DNA from: Natronomonas gomsonensis
GTDB taxonomy: Archaea > Halobacteriota > Halobacteria > Halobacteriales > Haloarculaceae
Reading direction: 5' to 3'
Length of the DNA stretch: 64,000 nucleotides
Assembly (NCBI RefSeq): GCF_024300825.1
Contig: NZ_CP101323.1
Location: 2,542,001-2,606,000 of the forward strand
Below are positions 32,403 to 36,753 of this stretch, in pieces. Within the stretch, counting starts at the first letter, position 1; each line of letters opens with the position of its first letter. The notes under the pieces were generated by a model that was not told the DNA's origin, ran no database searches, and saw nothing but the letters and a program-made list of their open reading frames with translations. The translations under genes were made by a program, and so were the position numbers.

Positions 32403-33749
32403 TCAGGGCCGCGGGTCGAAGTACGACGCCAACTCGGTGCCGAACTCCTCGGCCAGTTCCCCGATGTCACGGCCGGCAAGCAGGTCGTAGTCGTCTTCGA
32501 GTGCCGACTCGACGTGCGGCCCCAACGACACCTCGAACAGTTTCGATTCGACGAGTTCGGCGGGCGTTCGAGCCTCTCGAGGCCGTTCGACGACGTACCG
32601 TCCGTCCTCGTCGATGAACGGGCCGGCCACGCTCTCGTCGTCGTCGTAGGCGTCGTAGAACCCCTCGGCGTGAGAGCGGACGCCGACCGGTGGGCCGTCG
32701 TGGCGCTCGACGGCCGGCAACCTGGCGACGCCGCATTCGACGAACAGCACCGCCGTCTCGTCAGCGAACCGGGCGCTCCGAAGCGGTGCAAAGCCCGCGC
32801 GTTCGAGGGTGCCCTCGATGCCCGACAGCGACTTGTCGAGTTGGGGGTACAGTTGGTCCTCGACGATATCCGGGGTCTCGAAGCGGACGGCGACGGGTGC
32901 TGTCCCCCGGTCGGCGACGTGGTCTCGGATGTCGTTCGCTGAGAGGGGGTCGGGGTCTCGTGGGTCGAACAGTTCGATTCGAGGGTCGGCGAGCATCTCG
33001 CGGGCGTAGTGAATCAGTCGGCCGACGTTGCGTGGCGAGCAGACGGCGGCGACGTTGCGTTCGGGGTCGGTCGGGTCGATGACGACCAGCGGGTCGTCGA
33101 AGGATTTCGCCCCGTGGTCCTCGGGGTCGAGGTGAATCGGGGGGTTCCAGTCGGCGGCCGCTTCGAGTAGTTCGCGAAAGCCGCCGTACTCGACGACGAG
33201 CAGTTCGGTCAGAAACCCCGAAAACCCCTTCGTCCGGAGGTCGCTGCCGTAGGCGCCGACCGCACCGAGAAACGCCTTCGCCAGTCGAACGTCGTCGGCC
33301 AGCGAATCGATTCGCCCCTCCAGATACGCGGTGTGGAACGGCGTCCGGTCGACGGCCGAGCGGATGTTCGCGGCGTCATCGACGGCGTAGCAGGGCACAC
33401 AGTCCACGTCGAAGCCGCGGTACTCGCCTTTGACGTAGGGGTGTTCGGCGAACTCCTCGTGGCCCTCCGGAACGACTTCGTGGCCGACCGCCAGCCCGTA
33501 GCGTTCGAGGTCCTCACGAGCGAGGTCCGGCGAAAACCGGACGAAGAGGTCGATGTCTCGGTCGCCGGCGAGCCACGTTCCGCGGGCGGTCGAACCGACC
33601 AGCCGCGTGTCCGCCTCGACGGGGAGGTCCTCGATGGCGCCCTCGGCACGAGCGGTGAGGTCGGCGACGACCCTCTCCAGGGCCTCGCGCTCCTCCGGTT
33701 GAGGGACGACCCGGTCGCGGACCTCCGAGACGACCGACTCGAATGTCAT
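32403..33749 (-). CDS. cca: CCA tRNA nucleotidyltransferase, archaeal class I
   Basis: A 448-residue enzyme that adds or repairs the CCA end of tRNAs. The polymerase motif GSTARGTWLAGDRDIDLFVRF contains the GS and DxD catalytic residues (class I). Later segments give the archaeal palm and tail domains (VDCVPCYAVDD; AYLEGRI; RTKGFSGFLTELLVVEYGGF). None of the three tRNA genes in the window encodes CCA, consistent with a need for it. Confidence 0.92.
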   Translation of the reverse strand: MTFESVVSEVRDRVVPQPEEREALERVVADLTARAEGAIEDLPVEADTRLVGSTARGTWLAGDRDIDLFVRFSPDLAREDLERYGLAVGHEVVPEGHEEFAEHPYVKGEYRGFDVDCVPCYAVDDAANIRSAVDRTPFHTAYLEGRIDSLADDVRLAKAFLGAVGAYGSDLRTKGFSGFLTELLVVEYGGFRELLEAAADWNPPIHLDPEDHGAKSFDDPLVVIDPTDPERNVAAVCSPRNVGRLIHYAREMLADPRIELFDPRDPDPLSANDIRDHVADRGTAPVAVRFETPDIVEDQLYPQLDKSLSGIEGTLERAGFAPLRSARFADETAVLFVECGVARLPAVERHDGPPVGVRSHAEGFYDAYDDDESVAGPFIDEDGRYVVERPREARTPAELVESKLFEVSLGPHVESALEDDYDLLAGRDIGELAEEFGTELASYFDPRP

Positions 33750-33843
33750 ACTCGCGGTTGCGCCGTCGGCTGGTAAAGCGTGTCGATGCCGGGGCGAAGC
33801 GAAAGCCCTATTTGTCGTATCCGGGTATGAACGACTGCAACGT

Positions 33844-33916
33844 GCCGCCGTAGCTCAGTTGGTAGAGCACCTGGTTGTTACCCAGGTTGTCCCAGGTTCG
33901 AGACCTGGCGGCGGCG
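33844..33916 (+). tRNA. tRNA-Asn (anticodon GTT)
   Basis: A 73-base cloverleaf: acceptor GCCGCCG with CGGCGGC, anticodon stem CCTGG/CCAGG around TTGTTAC (anticodon GTT), and T arm CCAGG-TTCGAGA-CCTGG. CCA is not encoded and there is no intron. Confidence 0.95.
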
Positions 33917-33972
33917 TGGTTCTCCGGTCGCTACACGGGTACCGATCGGTGTTCCAGTCGTCGTTTCCATTC

Positions 33973-35154: not shown

Positions 35155-35841
35155 ACTGGCGTGTCGGGCGACAGGGGTTTGTGTGTTGGTGTGGAGACGA
35201 CGACCGTCTTGCTCGGTGTCCCGTTTCGCACACCCTCATTTCGGGTCGAAAGCGTTTCGATGGGGCGTGATAGTGGTCGTTCGACTATTGTACACCCATG
35301 TTCCCCTCCGAAAGTGTGGGTTCTGTGAGGACGTGTGGACAGTCGAAGCCGAGTATCCTGTTCCAATGGCTCTCACTCCCTTCCCGAGACGACCGCTGAC
35401 ACGGACTGTTGTGGCGGTTCTCCAGTCCGATGCGAGATAATGGGGTGACGACACCGTTCCGACCCGAACTCCGAACTGCCGGCACACCCCATCGTTGGTA
35501 GGGTGTGCTCCGTCATTTGGGGTTTTCGAGAATGCTGTGTGTCGAGTCAGTATCCCCTCGTGGTCGTTGTACGCTGGCTGTTCCGGACCCCATCGCGCTC
35601 ACTCGGACGGTTTCGAATACACAGCCTCCGAAGATGGTCACTTTTCGGCCAATCAGATGCCTGTGACTCAACGAGGCAACGCCAGAGACGTGTGTTCATT
35701 AGCAATTGGCCGAAACACGAGGGTGTTCTGTCGGCATACGTCTGTGGGTTTTATCGGGCACCCTGACGGGTGCGATGCCTCGGAGACTACTGACACACGC
35801 GAGCATTGATTGGGAAACACGCAGCGAACGCGTGGTGAGTC
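35155..35841. other. Gene-poor stretch with inverted repeats
   Basis: No convincing gene in 687 bases; the short open frames lack haloarchaeal codon bias. Visible structure: TCGAAA-GCG-TTTCGA at 35246-35260; an 8-bp inverted repeat GCACACCC/GGGTGTGC at 35482-35489 and 35501-35508; an 11-bp perfect inverted repeat TTTCGGCCAAT/ATTGGCCGAAA at 35643-35653 and 35705-35715 with a 51-nt interval; and a 6-bp GCACCC/GGGTGC hairpin near 35758-35773. Base composition is less GC-rich than on the left. Confidence 0.5.
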
Positions 35842-36606
35842 ATGATGGGTGAGTTCCACGGGAATCAACACACTGACTCGGAGTATAATGAATACGAGTA
35901 CGAGGATTTGGTGGAGGATGTCGCCGCACTAGCCGAAGAACTCGGTCGGTCGCCGACGACAGAAGACGCAAGCCAGGCGGACGGACTGCCTTCCATCGCC
36001 ACGCTGTACAAGATTATTAAGGACGACTGGGTGAGCACGCTTCGGGACGCTGGCGTTGAGCCAACGAAGAACCAGCGTCGGTCGCTGCCAATTGACCGAC
36101 GCGAGCGGATGCTCGAAGACTTACGACAGACGAACCGTGAGACAGAGGGGGACGTACTCCGACTCCGCCAGTATGATGAAAACGGGTCGTTCGATGGCAG
36201 TTCGATGAAGGTACGATTCGGGTCGTGGTCCGAGGCATGTACCGAAGCAGGGATTGACTGTGGAACGAGACACGGTGAACGGTGCGTTGGACCGAACGGC
36301 AACCAACTCGATAGCCGCCACGAACTGGCTGTTGCTCGGTATCTCGACGAAGCCGGAATCGAATACGAGACACATGTCGGAGTTGGGTCGACACGTTGGA
36401 CGTGTGACTTCTACCTTCCAAATCAGTGCCTGTGGGTCGAAGTAGACGGATACGTTGCGGGTGAACGGCCGAACGAACGCATGTTCACACAGAAACTCGG
36501 CTACTACGCGTTTCGTGGAATGGATTTCGTGGTCGTCAAGACGCCTGAAGAGTTGAGAGAATCACTAGCCTCTACACGAACAGGAGACGATACCCGGCAA
36601 ACCTAA
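35842..36606 (+). CDS. PD-(D/E)XK nuclease with homing-endonuclease-associated repeats
   Basis: A 254-residue protein. Residues about 20-75 and 85-142 are two copies of the helical repeat found beside homing endonucleases (LAEELGRSPTTEDASQ...DDWVSTLRDAG; RFGSWSEACTEAGI). The C-terminal domain has a Vsr/DUF559-like nuclease core: E161 in DSRHELAVARYL, D189 in TCDFYLP and E200 in LWVEVDG. It has no transposase or host intein around it. It ends 29 nt before an intron-containing tRNA gene. Codon use is weaker than in flanking core genes. Start could also be the second Met at 35845. Confidence 0.72.
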   Translation: MMGEFHGNQHTDSEYNEYEYEDLVEDVAALAEELGRSPTTEDASQADGLPSIATLYKIIKDDWVSTLRDAGVEPTKNQRRSLPIDRRERMLEDLRQTNRETEGDVLRLRQYDENGSFDGSSMKVRFGSWSEACTEAGIDCGTRHGERCVGPNGNQLDSRHELAVARYLDEAGIEYETHVGVGSTRWTCDFYLPNQCLWVEVDGYVAGERPNERMFTQKLGYYAFRGMDFVVVKTPEELRESLASTRTGDDTRQT

Positions 36607-36635
36607 GAGGGGGGAGCGGATATTCGGGTACACAA

Positions 36636-36753
36636 GGGCCCTTAGCTTAGTCTGGTCTAAAAGCCCCCGGCTCATATTCCTGTCAGTAATATCGGGCTGG
36701 TGCCCGCAGGATGGGACACCGGGTGAGCGCTGGTTCAAATCCGGCAGGGCCCA
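36636..36753 (+). tRNA. Elongator tRNA-Met (anticodon CAT) with an intron
   Basis: The acceptor stem GGGCCCT/AGGGCCC, T arm GCTGG-TTCAAAT-CCGGC, D stem GCTT/AAGC and anticodon stem CCCGG/CCGGG can all be formed. The anticodon loop reads CTCATA before an insertion and A after it, so the intron follows position 37, the usual archaeal site; I place it at 36677-36717 (41 bases), with an uncertainty of a base or two. Haloarchaeal elongator tRNA-Met and tRNA-Trp normally carry such introns, removed by the splicing endonuclease at a bulge-helix-bulge. Confidence 0.88.

Follow-up and report, generated by a model that had tools for sequence, protein, structure and literature searches.

A candidate free-standing homing endonuclease gene beside an intron-bearing tRNA(CAU) gene in haloarchaea

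The rRNA introns with LAGLIDADG endonucleases are mobile archaeal introns, and their nuclease is encoded inside the large rRNA intron. The archaeal tRNA introns differ in that, at about 30-50 nt, they cannot hold a gene. The mechanism of their transposition is called unknown (PMC4090602), and the integration of mobile elements has been proposed for their gain (PMC3293823).

In the cyanophage S-PM2, the psbA intron prevents the cleavage by the adjacent free-standing enzyme F-CphI, an arrangement named 'collaborative homing' (PMC6083498), and more phage cases of this type are described in PMC10448857. I-Bth0305I, a phage-derived enzyme, represents the EDxHD homing endonuclease family (PMC3943268). 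The locus described here shares with F-CphI and psbA the placement of a free-standing, in our case putative, homing endonuclease beside an intron-bearing gene. It also shares with the SegF-type intronless homing of phage T4 a free-standing nuclease gene located between two conserved genes, although no intron is involved in the latter (PMC6083498).

The locus lies in the window, a 64,000-nt stretch of the Natronomonas gomsonensis genome. A sequence-only reading had suggested that its nuclease either cuts intronless alleles of the neighbouring tRNA gene or drives the mobility of the adjacent island, and that neither role is described. The phage collaborative homing qualifies this statement of novelty. 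For archaea, we found no listed paper on a free-standing homing endonuclease tied to a tRNA intron in a literature search with thin coverage of subscription journals.

The nuclease gene and its fixed site

The nuclease open reading frame of 254 aa is at 35842..36606 on the + strand, as defined by the ORF list and the orthologue comparison. The N-terminus MGEF.GNQHT is conserved in several copies, so the second ATG at 35845 is the likely true start. Two homing endonuclease associated repeats (PF18780) are encoded at 35893..36057 and 36100..36258 on the same strand with scores of 33.5 and 39.1 bits, each over the cut-off, and the whole protein matches PF18780 with E=1.7e-18. These repeats are probably DNA-binding.

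The profile, Foldseek and residue conservation delineate an I-Bth0305I/Vsr-like nuclease core at about residues 154-233 (36301..36540, +). A profile of 11 orthologues matches PDB 3r3p, the catalytic domain of I-Bth0305I, with E=1.1e-5. Foldseek places 3r3p on top for the predicted model (probability 1.00, E=5e-3) and Vsr at rank 8 (E=0.8), the model being of modest quality with its 3 input sequences and mean pLDDT of 62.5. The fold closest to this model is itself that of a homing endonuclease. The repeats and the 3r3p matches by profile and fold bear out the initial description of a stand-alone homing-type nuclease that joins two homing-endonuclease-associated repeats to a Vsr-like core.

The candidate catalytic residues, already named in the sequence-only reading, are E161 (codon at 36322-36324), D189 (36406-36408) and E200 (36439-36441), all on the + strand. 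They are invariant in 12/12 full-length copies, when the Halorientalis salina copy is read across its frameshift with X. Loss of these residues in most orthologues, which the sequence-only reading named as evidence against itself, is not what we see. In the alignment of the profile with 3r3p, the E161 and E200 columns fall on E and the D189 column on A, and no HD pair was identified.

The NCBIfam scan of the open reading frame gave no match, and PHROGs gave only partial ones, several of them to annotated endonucleases and one to a Holliday junction resolvase. A multicopy family in its own genome was considered and rejected, for the gene is single at E<=1 and both PF18780 matches fall within it. 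Between paired copies the dN/dS is 0.17 (G170-G197), 0.16 (G374-G392), 0.26 (G000-G122, G000 being the window genome) and 0.08 (G304-G325), the last three pairs being at or near saturation of their synonymous sites. The protein thus is, or was, under selection for function.

Full-length relatives are sparse. The profile search, in which the best 6 candidates per genome were scored so that weak or decayed copies may be missed, found them in 12 of 392 genomes drawn evenly from the order, and the others gave only partial matches, mostly over the repeats. The carriers are spread over 8 genera and 4 families: the window genome, G122, G143 and Halorientalis salina NEN8 (G080) in family f1, Halorubellus salinus GX3 (G374) and G392 in f7, G270, G197 and G170 in f12, and G221, G304 and G325 in f4.

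A protein search of 146 genomes of the window genome's own family returned the window copy, those of G122 (59%) and G143 (48%), the broken G080 copy and four short partial matches. Among 170 genomes of family f4, there is no copy at E<=1e-30 besides the three known. A scan of viral contigs found no relative, and the matches in plasmids (18 records) and phages (2 records) are partial, none covering 80% of the query.

All 12 full-length copies are located just upstream of the same tRNA gene and on its strand, with the end of the reading frame 25-98 nt before the tRNA. The neighbour was called by aragorn in 11 of them and read from the sequence in G122, for which aragorn gave a wrong long intron. 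Among 18 control loci, which are the best-scoring partial matches of the repeat region in fetched stretches of about 3.4 kb (two shorter), only one has a tRNA and it is about 700 nt away. Chance neighbourhood is rejected by this contrast of 12/12 with 1/18, and the scatter over random loci that would have counted against a link with tRNA genes is not found.

The usual order at the locus, in Pfam names for the proteins, is RPA-like protein, histone, histone-deacetylase-type protein, CCA-adding enzyme, tRNA-Asn and tRNA-Ile2. In the window, the CCA-adding enzyme is at 32403..33749 (-, Pfam) and tRNA-Asn(GTT), the usual upstream neighbour of tRNA-Ile2, at 33843..33917 (+). Both are upstream in 9 of the 12 nuclease loci. 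At the G122 locus only tRNA-Asn of the usual block is seen, together with an Fe-alcohol dehydrogenase, and the G170 and G197 nucleases are outside the block yet still at tRNA-Ile2. Congeners have empty sites. The nuclease is thus an optional gene whose place is fixed, and the locus around it is otherwise syntenic.

As a separate observation on this neighbourhood, the calls of the nearby tRNA-Asn(GTT) include an intron of 30-33 nt in some genomes and none in others (L082-L088, L133, L231, L232, L235, L236, L254, L262).

The adjoining tRNA gene and its intron

The tRNA(CAU) gene at 36636-36753 begins 29 nt downstream of the nuclease reading frame. It consists of a 5′ exon at 36636..36676 with CTCATA at 36671-36676, a 41-nt intron at 36677..36717 and a 3′ exon at 36718..36753, all on the + strand. 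The intron is at tRNA position 37/38 and has a bulge-helix-bulge in the predicted fold. The close spacing of the nuclease and an intron-carrying tRNA was thus correctly noticed from the outset.

An upstream box of this gene, cccggcaaacctaagagg at 36593..36610 (+), was recognised by comparing by eye the 110 nt upstream of 40 related tRNA-Ile2 genes, and similar boxes are present at many of these loci. It is probably the tRNA-Ile2 promoter. The nuclease stop codon (36604-36606) is inside this box. A similar overlap of stop codon and box occurs in G221.

The tRNA gene had been taken for tRNA-Met. This identity is rejected, as the initiator tRNA of the window genome and its elongator tRNA-Met, which carries a 59-nt intron, are found at other loci. 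The gene is the third core CAU tRNA beside these two, and because both have separate genes elsewhere it is most likely the AUA-reading tRNA-Ile2. The elimination sets aside a fourth CAU tRNA located in a divergent tRNA cluster.

For comparison, Haloferax volcanii has three CAT tRNA genes and introns only in those for Met (75 nt), Gln (31) and Trp (103) (PMC2584109), and identical lengths are given in PMC7714728. By these accounts its introns are limited to the Met, Gln and Trp genes, and its tRNA-Ile(CAT) is therefore without one.

A cluster of nine tRNAs elsewhere in the window genome (L051, G000:C1:3503075-3507110; aragorn with introns allowed) includes an extra CAU tRNA, and one tRNA of the cluster is called with a 56-nt intron. 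It is possibly a mobile tRNA array.

Intron association and exchange at the locus

The tRNA-Ile2 introns are sporadic. By pattern matching, 143 of the 392 genomes are intron-bearing and 176 intronless, while 74 match neither pattern and are unclassified; G208 matches both and leaving it out changes nothing. All 12 carriers of the nuclease have the intron in tRNA-Ile2, a co-occurrence of the kind that the sequence-only reading proposed to check. The nuclease is present in 12/143 intron-bearing and 0/176 intronless genomes (Fisher p=5e-5).

Conditioned on genus, the exact probability is 0.014, the product of 1/5 (g55), 1/10 (g69) and 15/21 (g1). In g55, the sole intron-bearing genome has the nuclease and four intronless ones lack it. 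In g69, both of the two intron-bearing genomes have it and three intronless ones lack it. The nuclease-free congeners in g11, g44 and g68 also bear the intron. Phylogenetically independent pairs are about 3 concordant and 0 discordant with the rest equal (median p 0.25), an underpowered comparison with too few pairs for significance. Its tree is of two housekeeping proteins over 35 loci, five of the 40 loci missing for lack of one or both proteins.

The relation is one-way, as the nuclease implies the intron. The intron does not depend on the nuclease, because 131 of the 143 intron-bearing genomes are without it. The introns among the 143 intron-bearing tRNA-Ile2 genes are also longer in nuclease-bearing genomes, with medians of 39 vs 32 nt (p=9e-6, kinship ignored).

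The window genome and its nearest relatives, G117 and G131, show what is optional at the site. Their sequences are 92.9% and 93.5% identical across 6.7 kb up to 47/44 nt before the tRNA of the relatives. In 200-bp steps, this upstream identity is 82-100%, and 84-88% next to the break. In the window genome the flank alignments stop at -1432/-1429, and in G117/G131 at -47/-44. The next ones start at -46/-43 and -45/-42, with the tRNA region only 73.9% and 80.4% alike.

By this alignment, a segment of about 1.39 kb at 35204..36589 (+) is absent from both relatives, and its insertion ends at the tRNA promoter box. It contains the nuclease and about 640 nt before it. The latter part, 35204-35841, has no obvious gene.

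An island integrated at the tRNA may carry the nuclease as cargo or be driven by it, the latter as the sequence-only reading suggested. Integration into tRNA genes is common and occurs at either end (PMC3293823), and Halorientalis salina has, about 1 kb downstream of the tRNA, an att-like 13-nt copy of the tRNA-Ile2 3′ end (L036:71-83, -; by eye). In the window, however, no copy of the tRNA 3′ end exceeds the chance level: the single extra one (16 nt, <=3 mismatches allowed) has 3 mismatches, which 10/100 shuffles reach. The segment missing from the nearest relatives is, moreover, short at 1.39 kb with the nuclease as its only plausible gene. We hold the island reading to be very improbable, and the suggested role in island mobility finds no backing in the window.

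The tRNA gene itself diverges in the window species, within a well-conserved flank. The window exons differ from those of G117 and G131 at 10 positions, from nuclease-bearing G122 at 6, and from G143 and G221 at 3. They also differ at 3 from nuclease-free G121, so that exon sequence by itself does not follow the presence of the nuclease. Between the window and G122 introns the identity is 77% (0/500 shuffles as high), and between the window and G117 introns it is 56% (202/500). In species descent, G122 is more distant than G117/G131, as its neighbouring dehydrogenase is 75% vs 89-90% identical.

The intron likeness is not confined to the carriers. The G122 intron shares 67% identity with those of the nuclease-free G117/G131 as well, and the introns of G197, G221 and G080 (3/12 carriers) are, within the fetched loci, each most like that of a nuclease-free genome. 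Across families, the tRNA exons of G221 (f4) are identical to those of G143 (f1) and have 8 differences from four G221 congeners. On the downstream side of the tRNA, similarity mostly extends no further than about 200 nt.

The patterns of exons, intron and insertion fit a local replacement of the tRNA gene along with the nuclease and the intron. The nuclease tree does not appear to follow the families cleanly, by tests that are weak: the p-AU for one clade per family is 0.043 for f12 (borderline, uncorrected for three tests), 0.108 for f4 and 0.276 for f1. Two genomes of family f7, G372 and G423, have intronless and nuclease-free tRNA-Ile2 (L242, L243) with exons one difference from the G143/G221 type. 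They are possible donors, former carriers or good targets.

Where a homing enzyme would cut can be read in two ways. Its site may be in the promoter or 5′ flank, the insertion point of its own gene, with the intron a hitch-hiker or a feature of common donors. The insertion in the window could then destroy a flanking target by itself, and the persistence of most introns without the nuclease agrees with this reading. This reading is kept in play because the insertion edge sits precisely at the promoter box.

A flanking target accords less with other features. Visual comparison shows little likeness between genera in the flank preceding the box but a well-conserved tRNA, and the spacing of 25-98 nt between the reading frame and the tRNA is variable. 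The association with the intron (p=5e-5, and 0.014 when conditioned on genus) and the g55 and g69 contrasts also tell against it. We regard the flank target as unlikely, though as the main alternative, and prefer a target within the tRNA gene that the intron splits.

Several copies are in decay. Lesions are found in 3/12 copies: the G080 copy is frameshifted, that of G221 has a stop at codon 8, and that of G392 has ATA at the conserved start. The search for fragments covered the 40 fetched loci, of which 28 have no full-length copy. G118 (L240), whose tRNA-Ile2 is intronless, has a fragment at -251 to -31 relative to this tRNA. The fragment matches residues 140-181 and 225-253 and lacks 182-224, hence D189 and E200. 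This case is consistent with the intron being lost after the death of the enzyme, while a single case proves nothing.

This decay also bears on whether the nuclease is a resident of the locus for defence. Such a guard would be stably housed at the tRNA locus and might act, for example, against elements integrating at tRNA-Ile2, and the intron would independently block the integration, as in the proposal of Randau and Soll. The PADLOC candidate PDC-S69 is indeed matched by 11/11 copies tested (best E 5.4e-8; residues 146-232 in the window copy), and it has been proposed that introns shield tRNA genes from integration (PMC4090602). The sparse distribution, the lesions and the G118 fragment better fit a selfish gene, however, and we consider the guard improbable.

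Proposed mechanism and known systems

The reading we favour, with somewhat more confidence than doubt, is that the gene encodes a free-standing homing endonuclease mobile at the tRNA-Ile2(CAU) locus, shielded by and moving together with the 37/38 intron. The enzyme would recognise the tRNA-Ile2 gene, most likely across the anticodon region, and cut intronless copies when haloarchaea exchange genes. As the break is repaired from the donor, the nuclease, the intron and the neighbouring tRNA exon sequence would be copied into the recipient. The intron would split the target and so protect the carrier, and the archaeal splicing endonuclease would keep the intron-bearing tRNA functional. From comparison of genomes we infer the cutting, its exact target, the protection by the intron, the repair-driven transfer and its direction.

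In broader terms, the chances appear even that free-standing homing endonucleases can take archaeal bulge-helix-bulge tRNA introns along as mobile passengers. A protein-spliced intron, not a ribozyme, would then serve as the shield. This would open a DNA-level route for tRNA intron gain and for whole-tRNA-gene replacement between haloarchaeal families.

The locus thereby offers a concrete and testable alternative for archaeal tRNA intron gain in culturable halophiles. A single enzyme would act on a single target of about 120 bp, and both kinds of allele occur in nature, presumably cleavable when intronless and protected when intron-bearing. If true, the mechanism would explain the strong divergence of a normally conserved tRNA gene between otherwise close species.

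A bacterial homing enzyme likewise targets a CAU tRNA gene in its anticodon region, as proposed here, and reportedly belongs to the PD-(D/E)XK class. It differs in that it is encoded within a group I intron and the tRNA is another one. I-Bth0305I (PDB 3r3p) has the homologous nuclease domain and the best fold match. The likeness is in the sequence and fold of the catalytic domain. Its PDB entry is named 'mobile intron protein', whereas the gene here is free-standing and has the PF18780 repeats.

In the F-CphI system, the psbA intron gains potential mobility from the adjacent nuclease (PMC6083498). It is a phage system with a protein-coding target, a group I intron and an Endo VII motif. In contrast, the system here would operate on an archaeal chromosome, with a tRNA gene as the putative cleavage target, a protein-spliced bulge-helix-bulge intron and an I-Bth0305I-like nuclease core.
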